The notes below the pieces were generated by a model. That model saw only the letters and a list, made by a program, of their open reading frames with translations. It had not been told where the DNA came from and searched no databases. Positions 1,966 through 63,217 of a stretch of DNA of 64,000 bases are shown here, in pieces. The stretch comes from Melaminivora jejuensis (GTDB taxonomy: Bacteria > Pseudomonadota > Gammaproteobacteria > Burkholderiales > Burkholderiaceae_C), in NCBI RefSeq assembly GCF_017811175.1, contig NZ_JACWIJ010000002.1, positions 806,001-870,000 of the forward strand, given 5' to 3'. Position 1 is the stretch's first letter. Each line of letters opens with the position of its first letter. A program made the position numbers and the translations under genes.

Positions 1966-2010
1966 TGAAAAACGCCTTAAACCCTTGTGTATCAAGCGAT
2001 GGTAGCTATT
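1966..2010 (-). repeat. Dispersed repeat copy 1
   Basis: Copy of the ~45-bp dispersed element, read on the minus strand (AATAGCTACCATCGCTTG, then ACAAGGGTTTAAGGC). It lies between the response regulator start and the ttrA stop. Copies of this family recur across the window, mostly between genes. Confidence 0.7.
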
Positions 2011-2025
2011 GAAAGCATAGCTGCT

Positions 2026-5000
2026 TCACACCTTGCGCACGCGCACCGGCAGGCCTTGGCGCACCACCGCGCCCGAGACCCACTCGATCCAGACGTTGTC
2101 CCGGGCCGGGCGCGTCGGGTCGGCAAAGCCCAGGTCGTTGAGGTTCACGCCACTGGCGTTGTGCGGGTCGTGCGCCGTGGCCTTGCCGTCGATGGTGTGC
2201 GCCACTGCGCCCAGCTGCCGGTGGCCGTAGCCGTATTCGATGGCCACCGTGCCCGGGGCGATGCCGCTCCTGACCAGGGCCACGCCCTGCACGCTGGCGC
2301 CGGGCGTGCTGACTTCGATCCGGTCGCCGTTGGCAATCCCGAAGCGCGCCGCGTCGTCCCTGTGCAGGCTGATGGGGTTGTGCGGGTGTACCTGGCGCAG
2401 GCGCTTGACGCCGATCGACATGCTGCTCATCAGGTTGGACTTGTAGGAGCTCAGCGTCAGCGGCCAGTCCGACTCGGGATAGTGCTCGCGCATGGCCGAG
2501 CCGTCGGCAAAGCGCGTCGGAAACCAGGTCGGGCAGCCCACGTAGGCCTCGCCGGTCATGGAGTGGCGCATCTTCGCCAGCCCCTCGTGCCACAGCTGCA
2601 CCGGGAACTTGTGCGCCGCCTTGATGTGCTCGCCCACCCAGGCGTCCTCGATGGTGTCGAAGCGCCCGCCGCGGCTCATGACCATGGCCACGCGGCGCAC
2701 CTCCTCGGGCTTGAGGCGCTTTTGCACCTCGGGCATCCAGCGCTTGAGGCCGGTGATCTCGATGTCGTCGTCGCTGGCCTCGGGCACGGGCTTGCCGGCC
2801 TGCCAGGCGATGTTGCAGATGCCGCGCACGTAGAAATCCTCGGCGCTTTCCAGGTCGAGGGGCTCGCCGTCGCGGGTAGCCATGGCGTTCTTGCCAAAGC
2901 CTGGCAGCTGCAGCTCCCGGGCCACGGCGAACAGGAAGGCCTCGAAGTTGACCGGCCGGCCGTCCGCCGTGCGCGCCGTGGCCGGCTCGACCACTGGCCA
3001 GCGCACGGTCGAGGTCTTGGCGATCACGTCGGCCCAGGGCGCGCCTATGCCCCAGCTCTCGTAGGTCACCGTGTCGGGCACGATGTAGTCGGCCAGCGCC
3101 GAGGTCTCGTTGATGAAGGGATCGACCGAGATGAACAGCGGCAGCTTCTTGGGATCCTTGATGGCCGGCACCACGGCGTGCTCGAAGCCGGCAATGGCAT
3201 ACACCGGGTTCGACATGTGGTTAATCCACGCCTTGATGGCGTAGGGGTAGCCCAGCAGGCCCGCCGCCACCATCTCGCTGCTCATGTTGCCGGGCGCGGG
3301 GTACCAGGGCGCGCGCGCCGGGTAGGGGTTCTCGCCGGCTGCCTTCTTGCGCTTGAACTCGCTGGTCTTTTCGTAGGGGAAGCGCGTGCGCGACAGCGAC
3401 ACGCCGCTGGGCTTGACCTGGCCCTCGAAGGTGGCGAAGTTGTAGCGCGGCCCCGGGCCGAAGGGGCCGAACGGCCCGGCGTCCAGCACCCAGCCGCCCT
3501 TGACGTTCAGGTTGCCGACCAGGTTGTTCAGCATGGCGATGGCATAGGCAGTGTAGAAGCCTGCGCCGCTCATGGTGCCGCCGTGCGAGTTGGCCACTGC
3601 CCGCTTGCCGTGGCTGGTGAACTCGCGCGCCAGGGCTTCGATCTCGGCCACCGGCACGCCGCAGATGTCCGAATACTCCTGCAGCGTCATGCGCTGGGCG
3701 TGCTCGCGCAGCTTGGCAAACGACGTGCATACGGGCACCGGCGCTGGCTCTTCGGCAGCGCCTTCAGCGCGCGGCAGGGTGAATTCGCGCTCGACCATCA
3801 GCTGCGCGGGCTGGGCCACCGTGTGGGCGCTGAGTGTGCCGTCGGCCAGCTGCACCACATAGACATCCTCGGCCGGGGTTTTCTCGTCCACCGGCTCGGG
3901 CAGGGGCAGGCCGATGTCCGCGCCGCGCAGGAACTGGCCGAAGCGCGGGTGCTGGGGGTCGTTGATGAGCAAATGCGTGGCGTTGCTCCACGACGCCTCG
4001 CCGGCGGCGGCCATGGCCTGCGGGCCGGGTTGGGCCAGGTATTGGGCGTCGTAGCGCTCGTTGTCGATGATCCAGCGGATCAGCGCCATGGCCAGCGCCA
4101 GGTCGGTGGCGGGCTTGACGGGCAGCCAGCGGTTGTTGTCGCCGGCGGCGTGGCTGGATGAGGTCGGTAGCACGGGCGAGACCACCACGTACTGGTAGCT
4201 GTTGTCCTCGCGCGAGCGCGCCTCGGCCAGCTCCCGGCCCATGCGCTGGAAGGGGTTGCCGGCCTGCGCCGGCGCCGTGCCCAGAAACAGGCCGAAGCGC
4301 GAGTTCTTCCAGTCCGGCTTGCCGTGCGGCATCCCGGGGATGTTGCCCAGCGCCGCCGCCGTGCCGACGCGGTAGGTCTGGCCGCAGTAGGCGCCGTGGT
4401 TGGAGAAGTTCACCGTGCCGAACGACGGGCCGGCAAAGCGGCGGATCAGCGGCGTGCGGCCTTCGTTGGAGGCGTCGGTGATGACCAGCTGGTTGGACTT
4501 GGGGCCGTACTCGGGGTTGTCCGGGTCGATCAGGGTGTCCACGTCGCGGATGGCGCGCAGGCCATCCACATGGCCCTCGCCGAACAGGTCGCCGCCTTCG
4601 CACACTTCCTTGACCAGTTGCTCCAGCGAGATGCTCTGCCACTGGCCCGAGCCGCGCGGCCCCACGCGCTTGAGCGGTGTGAGCACGCGATGCGGGGCGC
4701 TTTGGTGCTCCAGCATGGCCGAGCCGCGCGCGCACGACGTGGCGCGGCCCTCGATGCCGCTGTCGCCGCCCAGCATGGCGTAGGCCTGGCGCACCGGCAG
4801 GGCCATGGGCACGGCATTGGTCGTGGACAGCGGGTGGTAGGGGTTGCCGGCGATGCGGATGATCTGGCCGCGCTCGGTGTCCACGCGCACGCGCACGCCG
4901 CACTGCGTCCAGCAGCCCAGGCAGCTCGATGGGCTGACCACCTGGCCGGGCTGGGTGGCCAGCTGGCCGGTGGCCGGGTCGATGCGGAACTCGGGCGTGA

Positions 5001-5211
5001 GCGAGTTGCCGCGCGTGGCGCTTTTCGTGCCGACGCCGGAGGAGCCGCTGATCAGGCCCTTGGCGCCCTTGGCGACGACGTCGCCATAGCCGGCGGCAAA
5101 GGCCGTCAGGCCGCCGGCCACGGCACCGCCGCGCAGCAGCAGGCGGCGACGGCGCACGTCGGGCGCTTGGGTTTCATGGGTGGGGGCGGGGCGGGGAGGC
5201 TTGTTGGTCAT
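2026..5211 (-). CDS. ttrA: Tetrathionate reductase molybdopterin subunit TtrA
   Basis: Catalytic subunit (1061 residues) of a periplasm-facing molybdopterin oxidoreductase that reduces tetrathionate to thiosulfate. The N-terminus has a twin-arginine-type signal (RRRRLLLRGG followed by a hydrophobic stretch). Cys97, Cys100 and Cys104 (SSCLGCWTQCGV), with a later Cys in TSCARG, would bind a [4Fe-4S] cluster. A Cys in NHGAYCGQTYRVG is the likely Mo ligand, as in the Ttr/Psr/Arr branch. The C-terminus carries a molybdopterin dinucleotide-binding domain. Start ATG 5211 was preferred over 5292 because AAGGAACAG lies just upstream and the Tat signal begins soon after. Last gene of ttrB-ttrC-ttrA. 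A related sulfur- or arsenic-oxyanion reductase is the main alternative. Confidence 0.88.
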   Translation of the reverse strand: MTNKPPRPAPTHETQAPDVRRRRLLLRGGAVAGGLTAFAAGYGDVVAKGAKGLISGSSGVGTKSATRGNSLTPEFRIDPATGQLATQPGQVVSPSSCLGCWTQCGVRVRVDTERGQIIRIAGNPYHPLSTTNAVPMALPVRQAYAMLGGDSGIEGRATSCARGSAMLEHQSAPHRVLTPLKRVGPRGSGQWQSISLEQLVKEVCEGGDLFGEGHVDGLRAIRDVDTLIDPDNPEYGPKSNQLVITDASNEGRTPLIRRFAGPSFGTVNFSNHGAYCGQTYRVGTAAALGNIPGMPHGKPDWKNSRFGLFLGTAPAQAGNPFQRMGRELAEARSREDNSYQYVVVSPVLPTSSSHAAGDNNRWLPVKPATDLALAMALIRWIIDNERYDAQYLAQPGPQAMAAAGEASWSNATHLLINDPQHPRFGQFLRGADIGLPLPEPVDEKTPAEDVYVVQLADGTLSAHTVAQPAQLMVEREFTLPRAEGAAEEPAPVPVCTSFAKLREHAQRMTLQEYSDICGVPVAEIEALAREFTSHGKRAVANSHGGTMSGAGFYTAYAIAMLNNLVGNLNVKGGWVLDAGPFGPFGPGPRYNFATFEGQVKPSGVSLSRTRFPYEKTSEFKRKKAAGENPYPARAPWYPAPGNMSSEMVAAGLLGYPYAIKAWINHMSNPVYAIAGFEHAVVPAIKDPKKLPLFISVDPFINETSALADYIVPDTVTYESWGIGAPWADVIAKTSTVRWPVVEPATARTADGRPVNFEAFLFAVARELQLPGFGKNAMATRDGEPLDLESAEDFYVRGICNIAWQAGKPVPEASDDDIEITGLKRWMPEVQKRLKPEEVRRVAMVMSRGGRFDTIEDAWVGEHIKAAHKFPVQLWHEGLAKMRHSMTGEAYVGCPTWFPTRFADGSAMREHYPESDWPLTLSSYKSNLMSSMSIGVKRLRQVHPHNPISLHRDDAARFGIANGDRIEVSTPGASVQGVALVRSGIAPGTVAIEYGYGHRQLGAVAHTIDGKATAHDPHNASGVNLNDLGFADPTRPARDNVWIEWVSGAVVRQGLPVRVRKV

Positions 5212-5260
5212 GTCTGTTCCTTGGGGTCGTCGGGTTGGGCGTGGGCGGCGGGTTGCTTGT

Positions 5261-5310
5261 TTTTTTGATAGCTGCTCACGCTTGTCAGGCAACGGTTCGA
5301 GGCTTTTTTT
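5261..5310 (+). repeat. Dispersed repeat copy 2, inside the ttr operon
   Basis: Plus-oriented copy (GATAGCTGCTCACGCTTG, then TCAGGCAACGGTTCGAGGC) that fills most of the 100-nt gap between ttrC and ttrA. It would be transcribed within the operon mRNA, where it could form a hairpin or processing site. That role is inference. Confidence 0.7.
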
Positions 5311-5311
5311 C

Positions 5312-6376
5312 CTACGCGCGGGCGGGCTTGAGTGCCGGCCAGGTCTCCAGCGCCCAGGTGGCCGCCGCCACCAGGGCGATGCACAGGCCGAATACGCCCA
5401 GCATCCCCAGTAGTCCGTCGCTGCCCAGCGGCATGGTGTAGAGGTACAGGCCGGCGCCGAATTTGGGCACGCCCTGTACGCTCATGAACAGCGCCCAGCG
5501 AAACGCCCAGGCACTGCCGGCCAGCAGCAGGCCCAGCATGGCGCGGTACCAGGGGCAGGCCATGCGGGTGCGCCCGGCCAGCAGCACGGCCAGCACGGCC
5601 ACGCCGCCCAGCGCCGAGAGCACCATGCCGGCGCGCCAGACCGGGAAGTCATTCCACAGCCGCAGCGCCGCCAGCAGCGAGGGCGAGCGCGCCACCAGGC
5701 CCAGGGTGAACCAGCTCAGGGTGGCCAGCGCCAGCAGCGCGCCCAGGGCCAGGGCGATGCGGCGCAGCAGCTGCAGCGCTGCATCGTGCGGGCGCAGCGC
5801 GGCGGGCAGGAAGCGCTCGATCAGGAGCATCACGCCGATGGCCGCCAGCCAGCCGGTCAGCGCCAGGTTGACCGGCAGCCAGGCGGTGTGCCACAGCGGA
5901 CGGGCGCGCACCACCATGACCTCGGCGCCGGTGTAGAGCACGATGCTCAGCGCCGACAGCACCAGCAGCGGCGCCAGCAGGCGCATCCAGCGCAGGCGGC
6001 CCAGCCACCAGCTGGCGCACATGGCCAGCGCCAGTGCCACGAAGGCCGGCAGCAGCAGCGCGCCCAGCGACATCCACGACCAGGGCGTGAAGTGCGCGTA
6101 GAAGTGCCAAAAGCGCGCCGGCTGGTGCAGGTCGGCCAGCAGCGACACTGGCGCGGCAATGGCCACCACGGCCAGCGTCAGCACGGCCACCGGCGTCAGG
6201 CGTGCCAGGGGCGACAGCGGCGCATCGGGCGCGCTGGCTGGGCGTGCCAGGGCCAGGCCGCACGCCGCCACCAGCAGCGCCGCGCCGGTGGCGATGCCGG
6301 CCAGGAAGAAATACTGCACGGCCCAGGGCAGCCAGGCGGCCTCGTAGGCCGGGGTGAGCAATTCGATGATCTGCAT
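5312..6376 (-). CDS. ttrC: Tetrathionate reductase membrane subunit TtrC (NrfD/PsrC family)
   Basis: Polytopic membrane subunit (354 residues, about nine hydrophobic segments) that anchors the reductase and passes electrons from quinol to TtrB. The first segments (WAVQYFFLAGIATGAALLVA) are typical of the NrfD/PsrC family, and the length is close to known TtrC proteins. It begins 21 nt after ttrB and is followed, after a repeat-containing gap, by ttrA, giving the ttrBCA order known from enteric bacteria. NrfD proteins serve several complexes, so the assignment leans on its neighbours. Confidence 0.87.
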   Translation of the reverse strand: MQIIELLTPAYEAAWLPWAVQYFFLAGIATGAALLVAACGLALARPASAPDAPLSPLARLTPVAVLTLAVVAIAAPVSLLADLHQPARFWHFYAHFTPWSWMSLGALLLPAFVALALAMCASWWLGRLRWMRLLAPLLVLSALSIVLYTGAEVMVVRARPLWHTAWLPVNLALTGWLAAIGVMLLIERFLPAALRPHDAALQLLRRIALALGALLALATLSWFTLGLVARSPSLLAALRLWNDFPVWRAGMVLSALGGVAVLAVLLAGRTRMACPWYRAMLGLLLAGSAWAFRWALFMSVQGVPKFGAGLYLYTMPLGSDGLLGMLGVFGLCIALVAAATWALETWPALKPARA

Positions 6377-6397
6377 GTGAAAGTCCTCCCGGGGCGG

Positions 6398-7237: not shown

Positions 7238-7268
7238 TCTTCTTCATCTATTTATTCGATCATTCGGG

Positions 7269-7317
7269 ATATTCTCAGATTATTCTTTTATTTATCCTGC
7301 GTATTGATCCGGGTCAA
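7269..7317 (-). promoter_or_regulatory. FNR-type box and -10 element for ttrBCA
   Basis: TTGATCCGGGTCAA at 7304-7317 matches the FNR/ANR consensus TTGAT-N4-RTCAA. On the minus strand a TAATCT -10-like hexamer at 7282-7277 predicts a start near 7270, which places the box centre about 41 nt upstream, the spacing of class II FNR promoters. ttrB starts at 7237. The rest of the gap (7318-7430) is AT-rich, with an imperfect dyad TTTGATGAGTATTCAAA at 7329-7345 and no gene seen. Confidence 0.6.
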
Positions 7318-7469: not shown

Positions 7470-7518
7470 GCTGGTCTCCAGGATTGTGAAATCAGGGTGG
7501 ATTCAGGGTTTTTTCATG

Positions 7519-7570
7519 AAAAATGATAGCTATCAGCGCTTGCCTACATTGGTTTTGAGGCCGATTTGGA
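7519..7570 (+). repeat. Dispersed repeat copy 3
   Basis: Plus-oriented copy (AATGATAGCTATCAGCGCTTG, then CCTACATTGGTTTTGAGGCC) lying between the putA stop and its terminator hairpin. Confidence 0.7.
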
Positions 7571-7614
7571 TAAAAATTCGAATCGATATCCGCCGCGCTG
7601 TCTGGCCGAGCTCC

Positions 7615-10600
7615 TCAGGCCAGGGCCATCAGGCTGGCATTGCCGCCGGCTGCCGTGGTGTTGATGCTGGTGCTGCGCTCCAGCACCAGGCGCAGCAAGG
7701 CCGTGCAGGCATTTTGCCGGGATGCATCCGCATTCAGGGCTGCCAGGCCTGTCAATGCACCCGGGCGCTGGGTCAATATGCGCTGGAGATTCAGCAGGGC
7801 CGCCGCGCTGCCGCCGTGCAATACGGCAGCAAAATCCGCCTGCTGCCAGTTGGCCAGCAAGATCACGCGCTCTTGCACCGCATGGGGCAGGCGGGCGCGC
7901 AGGGCGGCTGCGCTGGCCGGCCACAGCGCCTGGCTGCCGGCGGCCAGCACGGTGGCCAGCTGCACCAGCAGGGCGGCGGGCGCGTCGCCCTCGGCCAGGC
8001 ACAGCACGCGCTCGCGCGGCAGGATGCGGTAGTCGTTTTTCTCGCCGGTCGGGCCGGGCAGGCGGGCCTGCAGGCCGGCGCAGCTGGCCTGGGCCAGGGC
8101 GGCGCAGATGCCGGCCAGCGGCGCGGCCCAGCCTTCGTGCTCCTGCTCCTGCGCCCAGGTCTGCAGCGCCTGCAGCGGCGCCAGCAGGGCCGGCTGCAGC
8201 GAGGCGTCCACTGCCGGCAAGGCACCGCCGGCAGTGCCGATGGCTGTGGCGGCTGTGGCAGCGATGGCCTGGCGTGCTGCGTCCAGGGGGTGGTGTGCCA
8301 GCAGCCGCAGCAGATACAGCGGCCCGCCCGCCTTCGGCCCGGTGCCCGACAGGCCTTCGCCGCCGAAGGGCTGTACGCCGACCACGGCGCCGACCATGTT
8401 GCGGTTCACGTACAGGTTGCCGGCCTGCGCCTGCGCGGCCACGCGCGCCACGGTCTCATCGATGCGCGTGTGTACGCCTTGCGTCAGGCCGTAGCCGGTA
8501 GCGTTGATCTGTGCCAGCAGCGCCGGCAACTCGGCGCGCGCATGGCGCAGCACGTGCAGCACCGGGCCGAAGACCTCGCGGCCCAGCTCGGTGGCGTCCT
8601 GCAGCTCGATCAGCGTGGGCGCGACAAAGGTGCCGCGCGCTGCCACGGCGGCGTCCAGCGCGCCCTGATGCACGGCATGGCCCTGCTTGCGCCGGCTGGC
8701 GATGTAGTCCTCGATGCCGCGCTGCGCTTCGGCGTCTATGACCGGGCCGATGTCGGTGGCCAGCGCGCCGGGGTCGCCCACGCGCTGCTCGGCCAGGGCG
8801 CCGCGCAGCATGGCCAGGATGCGCTCGGCGCACTCATCCTGCAGGCACAGCACGCGCAGCGCCGAGCAGCGCTGGCCGGCGCTGTCGAAGGCCGAGGCCA
8901 GCACGTCGGCCACGACCTGCTCGGCCAGCGCCGAGGAGTCCACGACCATGGCGTTCTGCCCGCCGGTTTCGGCGATCAGCGGCACTGGCTGGCCGTGCGC
9001 GCCCAGGCGCTGCGCCAGACTCTGTTGCAGGATGCGCGCGACCTCGGTCGAGCCGGTGAACATGACGCCCTGCACGCGCGCATCCCGCACCAGCGCCGCG
9101 CCCACGGCCTCGCCGCTGCCGGGTAGCAGCTGCAGCGCCGTGTGCGGCACGCCGGCGGCGTGCAGCAGGCGCACGGCCTCATGGGCGATGAGCGGCGTTT
9201 GCTCGGCGGGCTTGGCCAGCACCACGTTGCCGGCGGCCAGGGCGGCGGCAACCTGGCCCAGGAAGATGGCCAGCGGAAAATTCCACGGGCTGATGCACGC
9301 CACCGGCCCCAGCGGCACGTGCGTGGCGTTGTCCCAGCCGCCCGATTCGACCTGCGCGGCGTAGTAGCGCAGGAAGTCCACCGCCTCGCGCAGCTCGGCC
9401 ACGGCGTTGGCGGCGGTCTTGCCGGCCTCGCGCATGATGAGCGGCAGCAGGCGCGGCGCCTCGGCCTGGAGCAGCTCGGCGCTGCGGCGCAGCAGTTGCG
9501 TGCGCGCGGCAGGGGCGGTGGCTGCCCAGGCGGGCTGGCAGGCCGTGGCGGCGGCCAGGGCAGCGTCGATGTCGCCGGCGCTGGCCTCGCGCACCTGGCC
9601 GACCAGATCGCCGTGGTCGGCGGGATTGCGGATGTCCAGCAGGATAGGGGCGGTGTCTGCCTGCGCCATGTTGTCAAAAGCTACGCTTTCGATAGCTGTG
9701 AGCACTTGCCCAGCAAGGTTTTTCGCCGTATTTGATGCCAAATCTACAACCTGCGCCGGTGCTGCCGCTGCGCCGACCAGCGGCGCCGCCAGGCAGGCGC
9801 TGGCCCGGCTGGCGTCCAGCGCCTGTGCCAGGGCGGCCAGCATCGGCGCGGCGGCCAAGTCCAGCCCGCTCGAATTGGCGCGTGCCGCGCCGTAGAGGCC
9901 GCCCGGCAGCGGGATACGCGGGTGCGGCAGGCCGGCTGCGCCTTCGCTGGCCGCCAGCGCATCCACCGTGGCCACGGGGTCTTCGATCAGGGATTCCAGC
10001 GGCAGCGCCGTATCGGCCACGCGGTTGACGAACGAGGTGTTGGCGCCGTTTTCCAGCAGCCGGCGCACCAGGTAGGCCAGCAGGGTCTCGTGCGTGCCCA
10101 CTGGGGCGTAGATGCGGCAGGGGCGCTGGCCGATGATCTGCTCGTACAGCGGCTCGCCCATGCCGTGCAGGCACTGGAATTCGTACTGCCCGCCGTCGTA
10201 GCGCTGCGGCCCGGCCAGCTCCCAGATGCTGGCCAGGGTCTGCACGTTGTGCGTGGCGAACTGCGGATAGACCGCATCCGGCGCAGCCAGGAGCTTGCGC
10301 GCGCAGGCGATGTAGGACACGTCGGTATGTGCCTTGCGCGTATGGACGGGGTAGTCCGCCAGGCCCTCGACCTGGGCGCGCTTGATCTCGCTGTCCCAGT
10401 AGGCGCCCTTGACCAGGCGGATCATCAGCCGGTGGCCGCTCCTGCGCGCCAGGTCGATGCACCAGTCGATGACCGCCGGGCAGCGCTTTTGGTAGGCCTG
10501 GATGACGAAGCCGATGCCGGCAAAGCCGGCCAGCGAGGGTTCGTGGCACAGGCGCTCCAGCAAGTCCAGCGACAGCTCCAGCCGGTCGGCTTCCTCGGCG

Positions 10601-12607: not shown

Positions 12608-14032
12608 TTGCCGCCAGGCTGGCTGGCCATCGAATCCATGGATCTGGACGCCCAGGGCGTCGCGCATCGGCCCGACGGCAAGGTCGTGTTCATCGACGGC
12701 GCACTGCCGGGCGAGCTGGTCAGCGCCAGCACGGGCCGCAAGAAGAACAACTGGGAGCAGGCCCAGCTGACCGAGATCCATCGCGAGTCCAGCCAGCGCG
12801 TGCGCCCGCTGTGCCCGCACTTCGGCCTGCACGCCGGCGCCTGCGGCGGCTGCAAGATGCAGCACCTGGACGCCGGCGCCCAGGTGGCCGTCAAGCAGCG
12901 CGTGCTGGAGGACAACCTGTGGCATTTGGGCAAGGTGCGGCCCGAGACCGTGCTGCGCCCCATCCACGGCCCGGCCTGGGGCTATCGCTTCCGCGCCCGG
13001 CTGTCGGTGCGCCATGTGCTGAAAAAGGGCACGGTGCTGGTCGGCTTTCACGAGAGAAAGAGCCGCTACATCGCCGACATGCAGACCTGCAAGATCCTGC
13101 CGCCGCACGTCGATGCCCTGCTGATGCCGCTGCGCGCGCTGATCGCCGGCATGGACGCGCGCGACACCTGCCCGCAGATCGAGCTGGCCTGCGGCGACCG
13201 CGTCACCGCCCTGGTGCTGCGCCACCTGGAGCCGTTGTCGGGCGCCGACCGCCAGCGCCTGCGCGACTTCGCCGCGCAGCACGGCGTGCAGTGGTGGCTG
13301 CAGCCCAAGGGGCCGGACACGGTGCAGCTGCTGGACGCGGGCGGCGAGGCGCTGGCCTACGAGCTGCCCGATTTCGGCATCACCATGCCGTTTCGGCCCA
13401 CGGACTTCACCCAGGTCAATCCGCACATCAACCGCGTGCTGGTCACGCGCGCGCTGCGCCTGCTGCAGGTGCAGCCGCATGAGCGGGTGATCGACTGGTT
13501 CTGTGGCCTGGGCAATTTCACGCTGCCGCTGGCCACGCAGGCGCGCGAGGTGCTGGGCATAGAGGGCAGTGAGGCGCTGGTCGCCCGCTCACGCGAAAAT
13601 CATGCGAAAAATCAGGCGCAAAGGCCCGCTGGACAAGCGCTGGCAGCTACCATTTTCGTAGCGCGCAACCTGTTCGAGATGACGCCCGAGCTGCTCATGG
13701 CCGATGGCAGCGCCGACAAGTGGCTGGTCGATCCGCCGCGCGAGGGCGCTTTTGCTCTGGCCAAGGCGCTGGCTGACATCCACCAGGCGCGCATCGGCGC
13801 CGAGGGCGCTGCGGCCCTGCCGGCGGGCAGCGCGGGCTGGCAGCCGCCGGCGCGCATCGTCTATGTCAGTTGCAACCCGGCCACCCTGGCGCGCGACGCC
13901 GGCCTGCTGGTGCATCAGGCGGGCTACCGCTGCACGGCGGCGGGCGTGGTCAACATGTTTCCGCACACGGCGCACGTCGAGAGCATGGCCGTGTTCGAGC
14001 GGGTGGAAGCGGGTGGATCGAGGCCTGTCTGA
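12608..14032 (+). CDS. rlmD: 23S rRNA (uracil-1939-C5)-methyltransferase RlmD, N-terminal frameshift likely
   Basis: S-adenosylmethionine-dependent methyltransferase of the RumA/RlmD family. A TRAM domain opens it ([26 protein letters not shown]). Iron-sulfur cysteines follow ([23 protein letters not shown]), then SAM motif I ([16 protein letters not shown]), [11 protein letters not shown], and the catalytic Cys in [10 protein letters not shown]. The start is unclear. In frame only TTG 12608 precedes the TRAM domain. A better start, ATG 12528 ([10 protein letters not shown], preceded by GACAATCGGGGC), lies in another frame that one restored base in the C-rich stretch 12552-12570 would join. 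A repeat copy encodes [10 protein letters not shown] in the methyltransferase domain. Confidence 0.87.
13607..13658 (-). repeat. Dispersed repeat copy 5, in frame inside rlmD
   Basis: Minus-oriented copy (on plus: CAAAGGCCCGCTGGACAAGC then GCTGGCAGCTACCATTTTC) inside the methyltransferase domain. It encodes [14 protein letters not shown] just after the conserved EGSEALV stretch. Confidence 0.75.
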
Positions 14033-14036
14033 GGGC

Positions 14037-14084
14037 TGAAAATGGCTCCAGCGCTTGCCTGGCAAGCGCTGGCAGCTATCAAAA
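14037..14084 (-). repeat. Dispersed repeat copy 6 with a perfect palindrome
   Basis: Copy in the convergent gap between rlmD and the lipoprotein gene. Its core is a perfect inverted repeat: CCAGCGCTTGCC (14048-14059) and GGCAAGCGCTGG (14061-14072) around a single base. With the A/T tracts on both sides it could act as a two-way terminator. Confidence 0.75.
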
Positions 14085-14138
14085 AAGTAGTGTTGACAAG
14101 CAGCGTCAGAGCGCGGGTGCGCCAGCTGCACACGGGCA

Positions 14139-17625: not shown

Positions 17626-18374
17626 TCACTGCTTGAGCACGAAATTGATGGGCTGCACGAACCACATGGCCTCGGGCACGCCATTGCGCGTGCCAGGCAC
17701 GAAGCGCCAGCGCTGCACGGTCTCCAGCGCCTGGCGATCCAGCCGCTCGAAGCCGCTGGATTTCTTGAGCTCGACTTTTTGCGGCAGGCCGTCGGTGCCG
17801 ATCAGCACGTTGAGCAGCACCACGCCCTGCTCGCCCAGGCGGCGGCTGACGGCAGGATAGGCCGGGGCCGGGTTGTTCAGGTGGCTGGCGTTGCTGGAGG
17901 GCTGCACCACGGCGGGCGGGGCTGGTGGCGCAGGCGGCGCTGGAGGGGCCGGCGGTGCCGGCGGTACCGGGGGAGCGGGCGGCGCTGGCGGCTGCGGCTC
18001 GCTGGCGCCGGTGGGGGCATCGGGCGCCGGTGCCGGATCCGGGATGGCCAGCGGCATGGGGGCTGGCTGCGGGCGCGGCGGCGTGGGTTTGGGCGGCGCC
18101 GGAGCCGGTTTGGGTGGCGCGGGCTTGGGTGGGGCAGGCTTGGGCGGTGGCGGGGCGGGGGGGCCGGCGCCGGTGGTGGCGGCGCTGGCGGCTGCGCCAC
18201 CAGCATTTCGCTGATGAGCTGCACAGGCACCACCACCCGGGGCGGCTCGACCCGCGCCAGGCCCGACTGCAACGCCCAAAGGCCGCCTGCGTGCAGGGCC
18301 AGCACTGCAGTGGCCACGGCCAGGTTGCGGCCCGTCAGGCCCGGCATTGCGCCGTATCGGTCAGTCAAGGGCAT
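17626..18374 (-). pseudogene. tonB: TonB energy-transducing protein, frameshifted in this sequence
   Basis: Periplasm-spanning protein that passes energy from ExbB/ExbD to outer-membrane receptors. The N-terminal anchor (MPGLTGRNLAVATAVLALHA) and the start of the Pro-rich region are in one frame. The rest of the Pro/Lys linker (PPKPAPPKPAP), PAYPAVSRRLGEQGVVLLNV and the C-terminal domain (VQRWRFVPGTRNGVP) are in another. The frames join at a run of seven C on the coding strand (plus 18157-18163); one extra C restores a continuous protein of about 248 residues. An essential-looking gene broken at a homopolymer points to a sequencing undercall. Start at 18374 or 18347 is open. Confidence 0.82.
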
Positions 18375-18375
18375 G

Positions 18376-18428
18376 AAAAATGATAGCTGCTCGCGCTTGC
18401 CAGGCAAGGGCTGGAGGCCAAAAAGCCT
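18376..18428 (+). repeat. Dispersed repeat copy 7
   Basis: Plus-oriented copy close to the consensus (AATGATAGCTGCTCGCGCTTG, then CCAGGCAAGGGCTGGAGGCC), directly upstream of the tonB start and downstream of the bfd/small-ORF pair. Confidence 0.75.
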
Positions 18429-18450
18429 TGTATTCGTCCGGTGGGCGATG

Positions 18451-20091: not shown

Positions 20092-21051
20092 TCAGGCCGC
20101 AGGCGGGCGCTGGCGCCCCACGCGCCAGGCCAGGCGCGAGGGCAGGGTGGCCAGCACGACGCTGGCAAGCGCAATGGCAAAGGCCAGCAGTTGCATAGCG
20201 CCGAAGCGCTCGCCCAGCACCAGCACGCCCACCAGCGCGGCGCTGACGGGCAGCAGCACCGTGAACACGCCGCCCTGGGCAGCGGGCACGACCTGCAGGC
20301 CGGTCATCCATAGCCAGACCGTCCACATGCACGCCGCCAGCGCGTAGAACAGCAGCAGCAGCCACAGGCTGGCGGGCACGGCGCCGAAGTCGAAGCGCAG
20401 GGCCCACCACAGGCCCAGCGGCGTGGCCAGGGCAAAGCCCCACAGGTTGATCAGCGCCGTGATGCGCTTGGGGCCGAGGGCGCCGGTCAGCTTCTTGCCG
20501 ATGACCGAATAGGCGCCCTCGCAGACCGACGCCGCCACCAGCAGGGCGTAGCCCAACCACAGTGTCTTTGAGGTGTTTTCGGCCTCCAGCCCTTGCATGG
20601 TCTTCGCTGGCAGCTCCGGTTTCGATAGCGCAAAAAGTGCGATGCCGAGCACCGCGCAGGCTACCGCCAGCCAGGTGCGCGGCGCCACGCGCTCGCGCAG
20701 GAACAGCCAGCTCATGACCGCCACGCAGGCCGGAATGGAGGCCATGATGACGCCGGCCGAGGTGGCGCTGGTCAGGCTGACGCCATAGATCATGCAAATG
20801 GTGAACAGGAAGTTGCCCAGCAGCGCCTGCAGCAGCAACAGGGCGCGCGTCTGGCCGCTCATGGGTGGCTCGTCAGGTGGGCGGCGCAGCCAGCCCAGCA
20901 TGGCCAAGCCGCCGATGCCAAAGCGCAGCCAGGCCAGCAGCAAGACCGGAAAGGCCGCAGCCAGCGGCTTGGACAGGGCAACGTAGCTGCCCACCAGGGA
21001 CATGCTCAGGGCCAGGCAGAAGTAGGCGACGGGGCGGCTCGGTGGTGGCAC
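20092..21051 (-). CDS. EamA/DMT-family transporter
   Basis: Inner-membrane transporter of 319 residues with ten hydrophobic segments arranged as two EamA halves (YVALSKPLAAAFPVLLLAW, TSATSAGVIMASIPACVAVM; second half LINLWGFALATPLGLWW, VFTVLLPVSAALVGVLVLGE). Members export metabolites, amino acids or drugs; the substrate cannot be predicted. The loop between the two halves (about residues 139-159, SKPELPAKTMQGLEAENTSK) is encoded by a copy of the dispersed repeat. It is convergent with the RraA-like gene and divergent from aceA. Confidence 0.86.
   Translation of the reverse strand: MPPPSRPVAYFCLALSMSLVGSYVALSKPLAAAFPVLLLAWLRFGIGGLAMLGWLRRPPDEPPMSGQTRALLLLQALLGNFLFTICMIYGVSLTSATSAGVIMASIPACVAVMSWLFLRERVAPRTWLAVACAVLGIALFALSKPELPAKTMQGLEAENTSKTLWLGYALLVAASVCEGAYSVIGKKLTGALGPKRITALINLWGFALATPLGLWWALRFDFGAVPASLWLLLLFYALAACMWTVWLWMTGLQVVPAAQGGVFTVLLPVSAALVGVLVLGERFGAMQLLAFAIALASVVLATLPSRLAWRVGRQRPPAA
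20575..20629 (-). repeat. Dispersed repeat copy 8, in frame inside the EamA gene
   Basis: Minus-oriented copy (GAGCTGCCAGCGAAGACC, then ATGCAAGGGCTGGAGGCC on the coding strand). It is more diverged than the others. Here the repeat is read from the opposite side compared with putA, rlmD and tex, giving PELPAKTMQGLEAE. Confidence 0.6.
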
Positions 21052-25583: not shown

Positions 25584-25623
25584 AGCTGTCCGCACAGCCT
25601 GCGAGCAGGCTTTGAAATATCAA

Positions 25624-25675
25624 CGAAAACCCCGTTTTTCCCTTATGGGACAAGCGCTGAAAGCTATTTTTTTGA
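25624..25675 (-). repeat. Dispersed repeat copy 9
   Basis: Minus-oriented copy (on plus: TTATGGGACAAGCGCTGAAA then GCTATTTTTTTG) in the 101-nt gap between the acyl-CoA dehydrogenase and CoA-transferase genes, ending 9 nt before the latter. Confidence 0.7.
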
Positions 25676-25684
25676 AGTATTCAA

Positions 25685-35354: not shown

Positions 35355-35376
35355 GTTGCCAGCATATGATTTGCTA

Positions 35377-35430
35377 TTTTAAATATAGCTTCCACCGCTT
35401 GTCCAGCAAGGGTTTGAGCCGGATTTGACC
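35377..35430 (+). repeat. Dispersed repeat copy 10
   Basis: Plus-oriented copy (AATATAGCTTCCACCGCTTG, then TCCAGCAAGGGTTTGAGCC) filling the convergent gap between the MFS and FGE genes; it could serve both as a terminator. Confidence 0.75.
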
Positions 35431-35436
35431 ATATTT

Positions 35437-36573
35437 TCAGTCAGCGTCCCGCACCAGCCGGAAGCCCACGTGCGACATCGGGCTGTGCGGGTCGCTGCCG
35501 CGCCGGGCGCTGGGGCGGTAGGACAGGCAGTAGTCCTCGTTGCACAGAAAGGAGCCGCCACGGATGACCCGCCGGGGCGCGCCGGCCGGCACGCCCGGCT
35601 CATGCGGGTCGAACGATTGCTCCGGGCCGGGCGGGTTGTCCAGCGGGCCGTGGGTGCGTCTTGCCTGGCGCGCGAACTCGTCGGCGCGATACCAATCGGC
35701 CACCCACTGCCAGGCGTTGCCGGTCATGTCGTGCAGGCCGTAGCCATTGGCCGGGAAGCTCCCGACGGGCAGGGTGCCCGCCGCGCCACCCGCCTGCGCG
35801 CTGACCACCGGAAAGGGCCGCGTGCGGGCATCCCAATAGTTGGCCAGCATGGCGCCGCCGGGCCGGGCCTCGTCGCCCCAGGCGTAGGTGGCCTGCTCCA
35901 GGCCGCCGCGTGCGGCGAACTCCCATTCGGCCTCGGTCGGCAGGCGCTTGCCGGCCCAGCGGGCGTAGGCCAGCGCATCCTCATGGCTGACCTGCACCAC
36001 CGGATGGTCGCCCCGGCCCTCGATGGAGCTGCCCGGCCCCTGCGGATGGCGCCAGTCGGCGCCCGGCACGTAGCGCCACCACTGCCCGGGGTCGTCCAGC
36101 CGCACCGGCGCGCTGGTGCCGGCGAAGACCATGGCCCCAGGCACCAGCACCTCGTCGGGCGGGCGCGGCGTGCCGGGCGGCAGTTGCACGCGGATGGTGT
36201 CCCAGTCGGGCTGGCGCTCGGCGGTGGTGACGTAGCCGCTGTGGCGCACGAACTCGGCGAACTGGTCGTTGGTGACGTGCGTCGTGTCCATCCAGAAGCC
36301 CTTGACGCGCACTGGGTGCGCCGGACGCTCGTTGGCCTGGGCCAAGGGGTGGTCGCTGCCCATCAAAAAGGTGCCGCCCGGCACCCAGGCCATGCCCGCC
36401 GGGCCGCGCACGCCGTCGCCCAGCACGATGGTGGGGGGCGTCGGGCGCGGCGGGGCGCGCCGTGCCAGGGCCTGCCAGCCGCCCAGGCTGGCGAGTGCGG
36501 CGATGGCGGCACCGCCGCCCAGCAGCCAGCGCCGGCGCGGCTGTTGCGGCTGCGGCTGCTCAATGGACGCCAT
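35437..36573 (-). CDS. Formylglycine-generating enzyme (FGE-type sulfatase activator) with N-terminal export/anchor segment
   Basis: Converts the active-site Cys of type I sulfatases to formylglycine using oxygen. The fold is the FGE-sulfatase domain (GMAWVPGGTFLMGSDH, LPTEAEWEFAARGG, GYGLHDMTGNAWQWV). Both catalytic Cys are present, Cys344 and Cys349 in FLCNEDYCLSYRPSARRG, spaced as in human FGE, so this is a true FGE and not a catalytically dead relative. The N-terminus has arginines followed by a hydrophobic stretch (RRRWLLGGGAAIAALASL), pointing to Tat export or membrane anchoring; many bacterial FGEs are cytosolic. It starts 14 nt inside sulfatase 2 and so is translationally coupled to it. 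Confidence 0.86.
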   Translation of the reverse strand: MASIEQPQPQQPRRRWLLGGGAAIAALASLGGWQALARRAPPRPTPPTIVLGDGVRGPAGMAWVPGGTFLMGSDHPLAQANERPAHPVRVKGFWMDTTHVTNDQFAEFVRHSGYVTTAERQPDWDTIRVQLPPGTPRPPDEVLVPGAMVFAGTSAPVRLDDPGQWWRYVPGADWRHPQGPGSSIEGRGDHPVVQVSHEDALAYARWAGKRLPTEAEWEFAARGGLEQATYAWGDEARPGGAMLANYWDARTRPFPVVSAQAGGAAGTLPVGSFPANGYGLHDMTGNAWQWVADWYRADEFARQARRTHGPLDNPPGPEQSFDPHEPGVPAGAPRRVIRGGSFLCNEDYCLSYRPSARRGSDPHSPMSHVGFRLVRDAD

Positions 36574-43194: not shown

Positions 43195-43274
43195 GCTTCA
43201 CATTATGGGAAATAACGTGCGAAACATACAACTTTACGAGCGCGTTGCGCTCGCCCTCTACCTCCTCCCCTGAA

Positions 43275-44653: not shown

Positions 44654-44683
44654 CCAAAAGGGGGAGGCTTCGCGGGAATTCAG

Positions 44684-46534
44684 GTGAAGCGGGGTGTCGC
44701 CCTGGTGCTGGCCTGCCTGGGCCTGCTGCTGCTGGCAGGGGCGCCGCTGTGGCCGCAGCTGGCGCTGTTCGATGGCGGGCAGCGCCTGGACAGCGCCTTG
44801 GCCGCGCGGGCCGACGCTGGCGGGATGGCCACGCCCGATTGGCAGCCGGTGGCGCTGCCGCACACCTGGCCGGCCCGGCTGGGGGCTGCCCAATACCGCT
44901 ACCGCCTGCACCTGGAGCTGGCGCAGGCGCCGCGCGAGCCGCTGTACCTGTTCCTGCCGCTGCTCAGCCAGAGCGCGGTCGTGGCGCTCAACGGCGCCGA
45001 GCTGGCCGACACCGGCAACCGCACCCTGCCCACGGGCATCATCTCGGGCGTGACGGCGCTGGTGCGCCTGCCGGCGGATCGGCTGGTGCCGGGGCGCAAC
45101 ACGCTGGAGCTGCAGGTGGCCGCAGCCGGCGTGATCCGGGGCCATCTGGCCGCGCCGCTGGTGGGCAGCGCCGAGGTGCTGGCGCCGCACTACCGGCTGA
45201 ACCTGTTCCTGCTGGAGCACCTGCGCCTGATGGTGCTGGCCGGCCAGCTGCTGCTGGTGGTGGCGCTGCTGGTGCTGTGGCGGCAGCGCAGCGCCGAGCC
45301 GCTGTTTGGCTGGCTGCTGCTCATGCAGGTGCTCAGCCTGCCGCTGTACGTGGGCCTGCGCGCCGACCTGCCGGGCGTGCAGCAGGCGCTGCCCTACGTG
45401 CTGATGGCCAGCTCCGCGTCGGCCTTCATCCTGCCCATCATCGCCCTGCTGGTGAGCGGCCTGCCGGTGCCGCGCGCTCTGCAGGCCTGCGTGCCGCTGG
45501 TGCCGGCCCTGGGCCTGGCGCTGGCGCTGCTGACGCCGCTGGCGGCGCGCCAGGTCATGCTGGGGCTGAACGTGCCGGCGGCGCTGCTGGCGATCTGGGC
45601 GGCGGTGCTGATCGCCGCGCGGGGGGCGCTGCGCGGCGCGCAGGAAGCGCGGCTGCTGCTTGTGCCCATGCTGCTGTTCGCGCTGGCCCTGCTGCACGAC
45701 GTGGCGCTGGTGGCCGGCTGGGTGGATGGCGCCATCTTGCTGGGCGCCTACTGCCGCATGGTGCTGCTGATCGCCATCGCGGCCATCCTGATGCGCCGCC
45801 TGGGCCTGAGCCTGATGCGCCTGGACGGCGCCAATGCCCGCCTGCGCCAGACGCTGGCGCAGCGCGAGGCGCAGTTGGCGCTCCTGCACGCGGAGGAGCG
45901 GCGCGAGGCCGCCGAGCGCGTGCGCAGCCAGGAGCGCCAGCGCCTGACGGTGGATCTGCACGACGGCGTAAGCGGCCAGCTGGCCTCCATCCTGGCGCTG
46001 GCCGAGCGCGCCGGCGTGCCGGCCATCGAGCGCAGCGCCCGCGAGGCGCTGGACGACCTGCGCGCCGTGATCCACTCGCTGGACATCGGCGACCGCGAGC
46101 TGGCCGTGGCGCTGGCCGGCCTGCGCGAGCGCAGCGCGCGCCAGCTCAAGCGTCTGGGCGTGCAGCTGGACTGGGCCATGGCGCAGTTGCCGGAGATCTC
46201 GGGCGTCACGCCCACGCACGCGCTCAATGTGCTGCGCATCGTCCAGGAGGCGCTGACCAACGCCGTGCGCCACGGCCCGGCCACGCGCATCGCGGTGCGC
46301 GGCCAGGCGCACGGCGCTGCACAGGCGGCCATCGTGGTGGAAAACGACGGCGCTGCCCCGGCAGCCGCAGCGCCTGCCATGCCTGGCGGCGGCGCGGGGC
46401 TGGAGAACATGCGCCGGCGCGCGCAGACACTGGGCGCCACGGTCTGCCTGCAGGCGCTGCCGGGGGGCGGCGCGCGCCTGGTGCTGCTGCTGCCGCTGCA
46501 ACTGCCGGGCGATGAGCCGACTCCCCGTGGATGA
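44684..46534 (+). CDS. Histidine kinase with 7TMR-DISM-type sensor, NarL-type partner
   Basis: Sensor kinase of 616 residues. A signal/anchor (RGVALVLACLGLLLLAGAPL) leads to a periplasmic beta-rich domain of 7TMR-DISM extracellular type 2, then about seven membrane helices, a coiled-coil (ARLRQTLAQREAQLALLHAE), a HisKA_3 box with phospho-His in QRLTVDLHDGVSGQLASIL, and an ATPase domain (LRIVQEALTNAVRHG, GGAGLENMRRRAQTLGA). HisKA_3 kinases pair with NarL-type regulators, such as the one 2.7 kb upstream. GTG 44684 is used because the ATG at 44636 lies inside the insertion sequence end. Its original promoter or leader was probably displaced by the two insertions. Confidence 0.85.
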   Translation: MKRGVALVLACLGLLLLAGAPLWPQLALFDGGQRLDSALAARADAGGMATPDWQPVALPHTWPARLGAAQYRYRLHLELAQAPREPLYLFLPLLSQSAVVALNGAELADTGNRTLPTGIISGVTALVRLPADRLVPGRNTLELQVAAAGVIRGHLAAPLVGSAEVLAPHYRLNLFLLEHLRLMVLAGQLLLVVALLVLWRQRSAEPLFGWLLLMQVLSLPLYVGLRADLPGVQQALPYVLMASSASAFILPIIALLVSGLPVPRALQACVPLVPALGLALALLTPLAARQVMLGLNVPAALLAIWAAVLIAARGALRGAQEARLLLVPMLLFALALLHDVALVAGWVDGAILLGAYCRMVLLIAIAAILMRRLGLSLMRLDGANARLRQTLAQREAQLALLHAEERREAAERVRSQERQRLTVDLHDGVSGQLASILALAERAGVPAIERSAREALDDLRAVIHSLDIGDRELAVALAGLRERSARQLKRLGVQLDWAMAQLPEISGVTPTHALNVLRIVQEALTNAVRHGPATRIAVRGQAHGAAQAAIVVENDGAAPAAAAPAMPGGGAGLENMRRRAQTLGATVCLQALPGGGARLVLLLPLQLPGDEPTPRG

Positions 46535-46536
46535 TA

Positions 46537-46636
46537 CAAAAAAGATAGCTGGCAGCGCTTGTCAGTCAAAGGTTTCAGGTAGAAAACTATCTGAAACCTT
46601 TTTCCAGCAAGCGGTGTCAGCTATATTTTTAATAGT
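46537..46636. repeat. Dispersed repeat copies 11a and 11b as an inverted pair
   Basis: A plus copy (AAGATAGCTGGCAGCGCTTG, then TCAGTCAAAGGTTTCAGG) is followed head to head by a minus copy (CTGAAACCTTTTTCCAGC, then AAGCGGTGTCAGCTATA). The inner ends form a 15-bp stem with one mismatch (46568-46582 with 46587-46601) around an AAAA loop. It fills the convergent gap between the kinase and tolA and is a good candidate two-way terminator. Confidence 0.8.
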
Positions 46637-46678: not shown

Positions 46679-47837
46679 TCAGTCCTTGGGCCGGAAGCCG
46701 ATGACCAGCGAGGGCGGCACGCGCCCGTCGGTGTCGCGCGGCAGGGTTTCCGTCTTGTGCAGGGCGCGCACCACGGCCTCGTCCCAGGCCGGGTTGCCGC
46801 TGGACTTCATGACGCGCACGCTGGTGATGGTGCCGTCGGGCGCGGCGCGCACCTCGACCTCGGCGCGCGGGTTGCCGGCCACGGTGTCGGGATAGACGAT
46901 GTTGGGCCGCACCTTGGCCGCCACCTTGCCGCCATAGCCGGCAGAAATGCCGCTGCCGCCGGCACCGGCCGTGGCACTGCCCGGGCCGCTGCTGCGCTGG
47001 GCGCTGCCGCTGGCGGACTCGCCCCCGGTCGCGCCCGCCAGGCCGGCGATGCGGCGCAGTTGTTCGCGGCGCAGCTCCTCGGCGCGCTTTTCCTCGGCTT
47101 CGGCGCGGCGCTTGTCCTCGGCGGCTTTTTTCTTCTGCTCCTCGGCACGGGCCTGTTTTTCACGCTCGGCCTTTTCGCGTTCGGCCTTTTCGCGTTCGGC
47201 CTTCTGGCGCTCGGCTTTGTCTTTTTCCGCCTTCTCGCGCTGGGCCTTTTCCCTCTCCGCCTTTTCTGCCTTGTCCTTCTCGGCCTTTTCCCGCTGGGCC
47301 TTCTCGCGCTCGGCCTTTTGCTCGGCCAGGCGTTCCTTCTTCTCCTGCTCCAGGCGTTCGCGGCGCTCCTCTTCCCTGCGCTCGCGTTCGCGCTTTTCAC
47401 GCTCCAGCTGCTGCTGACGCTTTTTTTCTTCTTCCAGGCGCTTTTTCTCGCGCTCCAGGGCAATGTCGGCCTCGCGCGTGTCGGCCACGGCGGCCTTGGC
47501 CGGGGGGGAGGGGGCGGCGGTGGCGCGGGCGCTGGCCGGGGGCCGGGGCGGGCGGTGGTGGGGGAGCGGGTGGCGGTGGCGGCGCCGGCAGGGGCGGCGG
47601 TGGCACGGCCCGGGGCGCGGCCTGCTGCGGCTGGGCCGACCACAGCTCGGCCTGTACGGCGGGCGCATCGTCGCTGGCCTTCCAGCGCACGCCCCAGGTC
47701 AGCGCGCCGATCAGCGCCAGGTGCGCCAGCACGGCCAGCGAGACGGCGCGCGTGCGCCCGGGCGGGCGCGGCGGCGCGAACTGGTCGCGGTCGGCCAGGG
47801 CCGGCTGCTGGGGCTGTCTATCCTCGGGGCCGCGCAC
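46679..47837 (-). pseudogene. tolA: TolA envelope protein, frameshifted in this sequence
   Basis: Links TolQ/TolR to the outer membrane during envelope constriction. The N-terminal anchor (TRAVSLAVLAHLALIGALTW) and Pro-rich start are in one frame. The rest of the protein is in another: the long charged coiled coil (repeats such as EREKAQREKAEKDKAEK) and the C-terminal TonB-like domain (IVYPDTVAGNPRAEVEVRAA, ALHKTETLPRDTDG). The frames change in the C-rich stretch 47500-47570. Two added C bases, in the five-C and seven-C runs, give a smooth Pro-rich linker ([20 protein letters not shown]). Total about 385 residues. A sequencing artefact is the best explanation. It lies 5 nt after tolR. Confidence 0.82.
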
Positions 47838-53477: not shown

Positions 53478-53487
53478 GAGAATATGG

Positions 53488-53543
53488 GTGAAAAAGCCTT
53501 GAAAGCCTTTACTGGCAAGCGCTGATAGCTACTTAAATGATAG
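53488..53543 (-). repeat. Dispersed repeat copy 12
   Basis: Minus-oriented copy (on plus: GCCTTTACTGGCAAGCGCTG then ATAGCTACTTAAATGATAG) immediately upstream of the ferredoxin start. It may contribute to the leader of that gene. Confidence 0.75.
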
Positions 53544-53597
53544 TAAATCCGAAAGATTCCAGCACTTGCACTGGTTGCCCAAATTTTGAGCAATGCA

Positions 53598-56537: not shown

Positions 56538-56542
56538 AAGTC

Positions 56543-58458: not shown

Positions 58459-58462
58459 GCCG

Positions 58463-58897: not shown

Positions 58898-59010
58898 GGC
58901 TGGCGGCCATTATGGGCAGCGTCCGGCGCCCGGGCCACGGGACGGGCGTGGCCGGACAGGGCCTGTGGCACACTCGCGCGCTGCTTTTTCACTGTTGTTA
59001 TTTCCAGCAT

Positions 59011-61413
<2,403 letters not shown>

Positions 61414-61549
61414 GCAGGCACTGAACGGGCGCTGGGCAAGGCCGGGCTTGCGCTCACCTTGCGAAACAGTTTGAAACGATACGGCGCGCAGGGGCTGATA
61501 ATCGCGGCTTTCCGTCGCCCTGCATCCACCCGCCCCACACGCCACGACC

Positions 61550-62364: not shown

Positions 62365-62406
62365 AATCGCCGGTTTTTGCTGCGCTGCTGGCCGGCGCCA
62401 GCGCCC

Positions 62407-62439
62407 ATGGGTTCCCTCGCCCCCATCCACCAAAAAGGA
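62407..62439 (+). promoter_or_regulatory. Probable preQ1-I riboswitch before yhhQ
   Basis: A compact 33-nt element: stem ATGGG (62407-62411) with CCCAT (62422-62426), a 10-nt loop TTCCCTCGCC, then CCACC and AAAAAGGA, where the AAGGA is the ribosome site of yhhQ. Stem length, loop length, first loop U, last loop C, and the C-AAAA tail match the Thermoanaerobacter preQ1-I aptamer position by position. Loop UCC can pair with GGA to hide the ribosome site. The downstream gene is a queuosine-precursor transporter, which fits. Confidence 0.72.
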
Positions 62440-62444
62440 CTGTC

Positions 62445-63122: not shown

Positions 63123-63148
63123 AAAACCGCCCGTTGATGGCGGGCGGT
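63121..63148 (-). terminator. Terminator after argG
   Basis: ACCGCCCG (63126-63133) and CGGGCGGT (63141-63148) form an 8-bp perfect stem; on the minus strand it is followed by six T residues (63126-63121). It ends leftward argG transcription and overlaps the yhhQ stop. Confidence 0.8.
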
Positions 63149-63166
63149 CAGACAACAGGAAATGCA

Positions 63167-63217
63167 AATTTAATAGCTGCCCGCGCTTGCCTGGTAAGGG
63201 TTTGCGCGGGTTTTCAT
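63167..63217 (+). repeat. Dispersed repeat copy 14
   Basis: Plus-oriented copy (AATAGCTGCCCGCGCTTG, then CCTGGTAAGGGTTTGCGCGGG) between the argG stop and its terminator. Confidence 0.75.

Follow-up and report, generated by a model that had tools for sequence, protein, structure and literature searches.

Dispersed imperfect palindromes in a bacterial genome: a probable old family at inherited positions, with apparently genome-specific cores

The window, as we call the 64,000-nucleotide stretch of DNA analysed here, carries 15 copies of a palindrome-like element that occurs in hundreds of copies in its genome (G000). Where these copies can be compared with related genomes they mostly stand at the same positions, and by alignment the outer parts of the element appear to keep a memory of the locus, with the 32-bp core switched to a type specific for each genome. 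Our leading reading, which we hold tentatively and at somewhat less than even confidence, is that of a REP/RPE-like family, old and fixed in place, whose core has been rewritten lineage by lineage. An earlier note on this DNA had proposed an old, non-autonomous family of that kind; the hundreds of dispersed copies, the relatives within one family and the coding copies agree with this proposal, but mobility, a RAYT partner and an insertion unit were not borne out.

We seeded a 65-bp profile with the pattern ATAGCTGNNNGCGCTTG, derived from the consensus in the earlier note but blind to its coordinates, and iterated it over 464 kb of the genome (the window and 20 stretches) at a threshold of 12 bits. 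This yielded 85 copies above 12 bits, against none in the reversed sequence, where the best score was 7.6. In the window the profile called exactly 15 copies, seven on the forward and eight on the reverse strand and spanning 38.6-87.4 bits (Table 1), at the places where the note had reported at least 15, including the two at 46537; element-like sequence was present at 14/14 of its listed coordinates. Genome-wide, a half-element pattern allowing up to two mismatches matched 321 + 337 = 658 times, versus 12 + 13 = 25 for the reversed pattern; some sites enter these totals twice, as sites close to the start of contig C2 recur in contig C1, shifted by a constant 2704. The copy number, the use of both orientations and the genome-wide excess over a control all came out as the earlier note had anticipated. 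With totals of 321 and 337 we dropped a strand bias of the pattern matches; plus and minus copies in the profiled stretches of three genomes numbered 37/49, 40/60 and 61/69 (p 0.24, 0.057 and 0.54). A search of the window against Rfam gave nothing at gathering score.

The earlier estimate of about 45 bp captured a real palindrome-like repeat, but conservation in the profile runs to ~65 bp and includes A/T tracts and a CTAT..ATAG mini-palindrome. The layout, from about -12 to +52 around ATAG, is gCTAt, an A/T tract, ATAGCTGyCAGCGCTTG, a loop, CAAGGGTTTGAGGCC and a second A/T tract, the tracts being either A runs or T runs. Copies share ~60 bits of sequence, and their scores are bimodal, with almost none between 10 and 26 bits; scores are bimodal also in the congener G072, and the congener G201 shows an extra group of weak matches that are partly spurious.

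Table 1. Element copies and two host genes in the window (positions of the whole stretch)
Feature	Position	Strand	Score and evidence
Copy 1	1957..2021	-	65.7 bits
Copy 2	5256..5320	+	44.9 bits
Copy 3	7514..7578	+	69.3 bits
Copy 4, in frame within called ORF (- strand, 1289 aa)	9680..9744	+	69.6 bits; ORF call
Copy 5, in frame within rlmD	13598..13662	-	58.5 bits; RlmD model; +8 aa vs 1uwv
Copy 6, near-perfect palindrome, rlmD 3' end	14027..14091	-	61.4 bits
Copy 7; orthologous G201 place without scored copy	18371..18435	+	58.2 bits
Copy 8, in frame, unidentified 319-aa ORF; G201 4 aa and G178 3 aa shorter there	20565..20629	-	38.6 bits, window minimum
Copy 9	25615..25679	-	57.3 bits
Copy 10	35373..35437	+	87.4 bits, window maximum
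Copy 11, left half of tail-to-tail double	46533..46597	+	70.2 bits; 45-bp offset
Copy 12, right half of same double	46572..46636	-	62.2 bits
Copy 13	53480..53544	-	78.2 bits
Copy 14, in frame within tex-like gene	60259..60323	-	66.9 bits; +10 aa vs Tex 2oce/3bzc
Copy 15, within doubtful called ORF	63161..63225	+	71.8 bits
Host gene rlmD	12638..14032	+	NF009639, 621.9 bits, cut-off 458
Host gene tex	59002..61413	+	phmmer to P. aeruginosa Tex structures

We were able to place 20 of 86 own copies in a syntenic frame against G201, and 16 of 86 against G072. The orthologous place in G201 was occupied for 17/20, with 16 in the same orientation, where random placement gave a mean of 1.6 and a maximum of 5 (by an earlier method, 17 were occupied and 15 had the same orientation). 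In G072 it was occupied for 13/16, all of them in the same orientation (13/13; random mean 1.8). At the sites shared with G201, the core was classified as own-type in 16/16 own copies and as G201-type in 13/16 of their counterparts, whereas the outer parts classified by genome in 11/16 and 11/16 and were not diagnostic; the corresponding figures for G072 were 12/13 and 10/13 for the core, and 8/13 and 7/13 for the outer parts, so that the result rests on a small sample of 16 and 13 site pairs. Excess identity between orthologues in G201 was 0.214 in the right outer part, 0.097 in the left outer part and 0.036 in the core. Per-genome profiles gave different consensus cores across four congeners, among them GCGCTTG..CAAGGGTTTGAGG in G000, CGCTTGAT.CACGCCGGCTGAAGG in G201 and, from 10 copies only, GGCCCTTG..CAAGGGCT in G178. 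Gain or loss was also seen: three own copies have no counterpart in G201 and three have none in G072, and site C2:870559 is occupied in G000 and G201 and corresponds to a 38-bp gap in G072. No target duplication was seen, and the insertion unit that the earlier note had hoped to define did not emerge cleanly, occupied gene sites differing by 0 to 19 aa. A genome-wide switch of core type at conserved sites had not been foreseen in that note.

Renewed transposition and the concerted evolution of dispersed repeats in bacteria are difficult to tell apart. The stretches of 13 genomes held no genuine dispersed pairs at 0.85 identity or above; local tandem copies in G015 were the sole ones to reach 0.85. 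An identical pair in a larger G201 set was rejected as a case of recent copying, being unrelated repeated DNA scoring 24.6 bits, and neither the 13 genomes nor that larger set contained a REPIN-type master sequence with near-identical copies. Taken with the retention of orthologous positions, these data argue against recent activity of a 65-bp transposon in G000, and present-day mobility is not supported. Column shuffling showed extra structure, and therefore some shared ancestry or exchange remains: the standard deviation for the G000 core was 0.109 against at most 0.086 in the shuffles, and in G072 there were 16 core pairs at 0.9 or above where 0.24 were expected. The test omitted copies scoring 25 or less (1/86, 13/100 and 1/130) and members of doubles (10, 0 and 18); two of the 13 low G201 rows so omitted were identical copies of unrelated DNA. 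The between-copy excess of correlation is modest but real, and fits some copying or exchange.

These results bear directly on a different account, under which the copies would be fossil REP or MITE elements whose cores were homogenised by ectopic gene conversion through the common outer frame. Genome-specific cores at fixed sites, the modest surplus of similar core pairs and the fixed geometry of double copies are what conversion could produce, but we regard it as doubtful: genuine near-identical copies were not found, the tracts would be just ~30 bp long between frames that are only about 56-60% identical from copy to copy, and one strong copy, in LigA, sits in its gene without any change of length.

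Called ORFs, some of them doubtful, contain 25/86 copies (~30%), of which 13/25 lie in one common reading frame, and rare codons (relative use <0.1) make up 33.7% of codons within these 25 copies against 9.9% in their flanks. Family models name as hosts RlmD, TilS, HisZ, XseA, LigA, PgeF/YfiH and a PrmB-type methyltransferase, as well as FGAM synthase (a purine enzyme), an HrpA-like helicase and a KDO transferase. We measured the net length at the element site, where the element spans 22 residues, against solved homologues, and found the full 22-residue gain at none of the host proteins so compared. The differences were 0 in LigA (no gap relative to E. coli-type ligases) and in FolP (a weak copy of 27 bits); +6, +4 and +1 aa against three structures in TilS; +4 to +5 against structures in HisZ, though HisZ covers its family model over the full length; +7 aa in FGAM synthase (PurL), +8 aa in RlmD, +10 aa in Tex and +19 aa against E. 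coli YfiH in PgeF. For the KDO transferase the homologue alignment did not cover the element site, and the PrmB-type query gave no match among structures.

As two contrasting examples, we point to LigA and Tex. The LigA copy scores 63 bits, yet the spacing is 37 residues in all 21 motif-matched of 24 relatives, whose scores against the G000 profile range from -48 to 63; low scores may partly reflect other dialects, and 3/24 relatives were unmatched by motif. Such a strong copy without length change was another observation that the earlier note had not foreseen. For Tex we assembled 81 sequences (77 motif-matched of 80 retrieved loci, plus our own genome, G201, G072 and G178), and occupancy was all-or-none: 12/81 scored 24-67 (eight of the 77 and those four genomes), and the rest scored 1.3 or less. 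The Tex loop is 47 residues in 11 of the 12 occupied sequences and 61 in one, other loops having 35-76, and in alignment with G201 the outer loop around copy 14 is identical and the core different. The all-or-none occupancy and the bimodal scores fit discrete gain or loss rather than gradual building. At the level of these alignments, the PgeF copy looks like an insertion, and the LigA copy would fit an origin in place, as PgeF and Tex would not.

Our genomic context figures rest on the calls of a crude, home-made gene caller. With that caller, coding overlap was below 10% in 45/85 copies, against 8% at random, and at least 90% in 26/85. The 85 copies fell into genes (24), convergent gaps (18), tandem gaps (40) and divergent gaps (3), where 35 convergent gaps of at least 65 bp, 142 tandem gaps and 59 divergent gaps were available; relative to tandem genes, orientation was 21 to 19. 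Element copies keep away from promoters and show no bias with respect to gene direction, and the preference for gene 3' ends and convergent gaps described in the earlier note stands. Copy-free gaps longer than 20 kb are GC-poor: this genome has two (0.611 and 0.580 versus 0.667), G072 has none, and G201 has a copy-free stretch of more than 90 kb with a GC content of 0.57-0.63 versus 0.678, its two apparent copies there being spurious.

The concentration in convergent gaps relative to divergent ones, together with the indifference to gene direction, is what one would expect of ordinary bidirectional transcription terminators, but we consider this explanation very improbable, given the ~60 bits of common sequence, the ~30% of copies within called genes and the weak folding. 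Regarding the last of these, mean z of the minimum free energy in the first 40 of 86 copies of this genome was -0.72 on the plus and -0.58 on the minus strand (-2.1 in G178 and -1.8 in G010), and just 8% of the 86 copies have a Watson-Crick match at the central pair 12:26, both columns being mostly G. The earlier claim that each copy can fold into a hairpin is weak for this genome. The G178 consensus restores pairing between the arms at a position mismatched in G000, and RNAalifold gave a useful consensus for G178 alone. Counts of G:T and A:C pairs (296 and 130) were left unused because a single G000 column dominates them.

We next consider the RAYT question. Like REP/REPIN systems with their RAYT, the element is a short palindrome, mostly extragenic, in hundreds of copies, with inverted doubles and with RAYT in relatives; the 658 versus 25 pattern matches give it the high copy number of a REP. 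Close pairs in this genome are 5/5 tail-to-tail, all at a 45-bp offset, and 8/9 in G072 have the offset of 45, a fixed geometry reminiscent of REPINs (G201 pairs are mixed). Unlike those systems, the element has an apparently weak stem in this genome, a consensus tag of ATAG rather than GTAG (first base A in 84% and G in 15% of 86 copies) and no RAYT found in this genome, and unlike a REPIN it has no master sequence or near-identical copies and its core is switched at orthologous sites. The RAYT model NF047646 matched 176/200 genomes of a family sample, 57 of them over its cut-off, but did not match G000, so the partner that the earlier note suggested looking for was not recovered here. The Y1_Tnp matches in this genome were rejected as RAYT: by eye the pieces look like IS200/IS605-type TnpA adjoining a TnpB-like ORF, and they are interrupted by another transposase ORF. 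Among five genus genomes RAYT is full-length in two (G072 and G178), with weak partial matches in G201 and G200. It adjoins a gltB ORF in the four loci that we read (G072 gltB confirmed by NF008730); a GltB match is present in G072, G178, G095 and G196 and absent in G000, G201 and G200.

One could therefore propose a RAYT-mobilised REP/REPIN family, in which the gltB-linked RAYT of relatives would move the palindrome and the transposase would have been lost here. The inverted doubles accord with this, RAYT matches at E<=1e-13 occur in 21/24 copy-rich versus 102/176 other family genomes (Fisher p=0.006, uncorrected for phylogeny), and 8/18 copy-rich genomes inspected, versus 0/2 copy-poor ones, have an element no more than 60 bp from the stop codon of RAYT, although this may be a single inherited site. 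The link is suggestive at the level of genome comparison, but we judge the proposal unlikely, since many copy-poor genomes have RAYT, recent copies were not found and this genome lacks a match; moreover, in copy-rich G136 and G141 the RAYT-like protein scores under the cut-off and has no HxH motif, and in G095 and G196 the ORF at the RAYT place is RAYT-like at its start, with a weak match in G196 (1.6e-5) and none in G095. Di Nocera et al. 2013 (PMC3733652) record loss of the REPtron (RAYT locus), describe GTAG and CGTC REPs, intragenic ones often lying in replication/repair genes, and different REPs at about the same recB site of two Xanthomonas species, and name the RPE. Nunvar et al. 2010 (PMC2817692) call a Thauera RAYT horizontally acquired, and PMC8049555 models REPIN populations with a master sequence. 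PMC6006769 held nothing on the genera of interest, and no description of this element family was found in the literature searched, subscription journals lying outside its scope.

Returning to the reading of an old family fixed in place, we envisage that ~65-bp imperfect dyads, single or as a fixed tail-to-tail double, spread long ago, at some sites probably by insertion through a presumed mobiliser, as PgeF and Tex would indicate. Copies would now be inherited at fixed positions, nothing in G000 pointing to recent transposition, and would persist where tolerated, namely at gene ends, in convergent gaps and in variable protein loops. In each lineage the core would then be rewritten in place at most of the compared orthologous sites, the outer parts keeping their locus memory, as a sequence-specific recogniser of changing specificity acted site by site through selection or biased drive. 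For the rewriting process we give most weight to site-wise drive or selection by a recogniser, less to ectopic conversion and least to RAYT action. Orthologous sites set an outer frame with locus memory apart from the core that was replaced, and the strong copy in LigA sits in a gene of constant length; drive, conversion and transposition can therefore be tested against each other in related strains.

Two further systems are instructive here. Rickettsia palindromic elements (RPE) are, as here, palindromes that lie within ORFs of conserved genes and are read in a favoured frame; the present family differs in its lineage, in that most copies are extragenic and in that the net length change is often far below element size. 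DNA uptake sequences have a core of 9-12 bp and occupy hundreds of coding and non-coding sites in either orientation, with dialects between relatives and a scarcity in low-GC stretches. The element resembles the uptake sequences of Neisseriaceae and Pasteurellaceae in all of these distributional features, and its core rewriting may be likened to their change of dialect, but it has ~60 bits over 65 bp, bimodal scores and some insertions. An extension of this analogy, which we think improbable, is that the motif is a genome watermark for a candidate cellular recogniser, serving uptake or chromosome handling, such that shifts of core dialect would rewrite hundreds of fixed sites, essential-gene codons included, without transposition; the RAYT relatives without HxH, retained as open frames by gltB, would be candidate domesticated readers in some genera. 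The element is also relevant to annotation, since parts of housekeeping proteins, Tex, RlmD, LigA and PgeF among them, are moulded by it and encoded with rare codons.

Finally, we asked how widely the family is distributed. By pattern counts made by hand, 24/200 family genomes had at least 100 matches above control, and in an order-wide sample of 150, none of the 146 genomes from other families (0/146) reached that excess; these counts miss diverged dialects, such as that of G201, which carries another core. Indeed, G201 at first seemed nearly without the family (47 pattern matches, control 19), a conclusion that we rejected when the profile revealed that core. High copy numbers occur patchily and, among the genomes sampled, within one family only, probably Comamonadaceae, with which the earlier note had associated the sequence; in keeping with that association, the Tex gene of the window has its named relatives mostly in Comamonadaceae and other Burkholderiales. 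A scan of viral contigs gave 4 exact matches.

A RAYT-like open frame, that is, one resembling the REP-associated transposases considered as possible mobilisers of the element, is maintained despite loss of the HxH motif in the copy-rich relatives G136 and G141 (loci L051 and L052) and G095 and G196 (L242 and L243), and at the latter two loci it adjoins gltB. A domesticated DNA-binding protein is a possible candidate role for these frames. In the majority of the flanks inspected at the RAYT loci (L040-L059), the box GATRTGTCCC recurs 3' of the gene, as does a CTGACCCC-type box, and a GGGGTCAGA-type sequence lies 5' of the gene in several of them. It is possible that these boxes are the ends of the RAYT units themselves, without relation to the element.

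The window's tex gene carries an in-frame element copy in a loop where two relatives (L174 and L192) have a different extra sequence, of the VRPEPVEG / VRPELVEG type. Because this second kind of sequence is also found there, the loop may be a common acceptor for coding repeats.

Other features of the window and of the M. jejuensis genome (G000) are collected in the table. The 39-nt inverted repeats are possibly the ends of a mobile element, and the element-free stretches possibly represent acquired DNA.

Further repeats, transposase remnants and element-free stretches
Feature	Location	Details
Inverted repeats, 39 nt	window 43261-43299, 44629-44667	79% complementary; 1.3 kb between
Imperfect repeats	window 47121-47333	15-bp period
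Fragmented IS200/IS605-like TnpA (L029, L030)	G000:C2:578600-583300	split by a second transposase ORF; TnpB-like ORF adjoins the pieces; all named by eye
GC-poor stretch	G000:C2:881766-908468	no element copies
GC-poor stretch	G000:C2:1016093-1048863	no element copies

Sites on contig C1 of G000 reappear near the start of C2, always shifted by the same 2704 positions, and the assembly is therefore redundant there.
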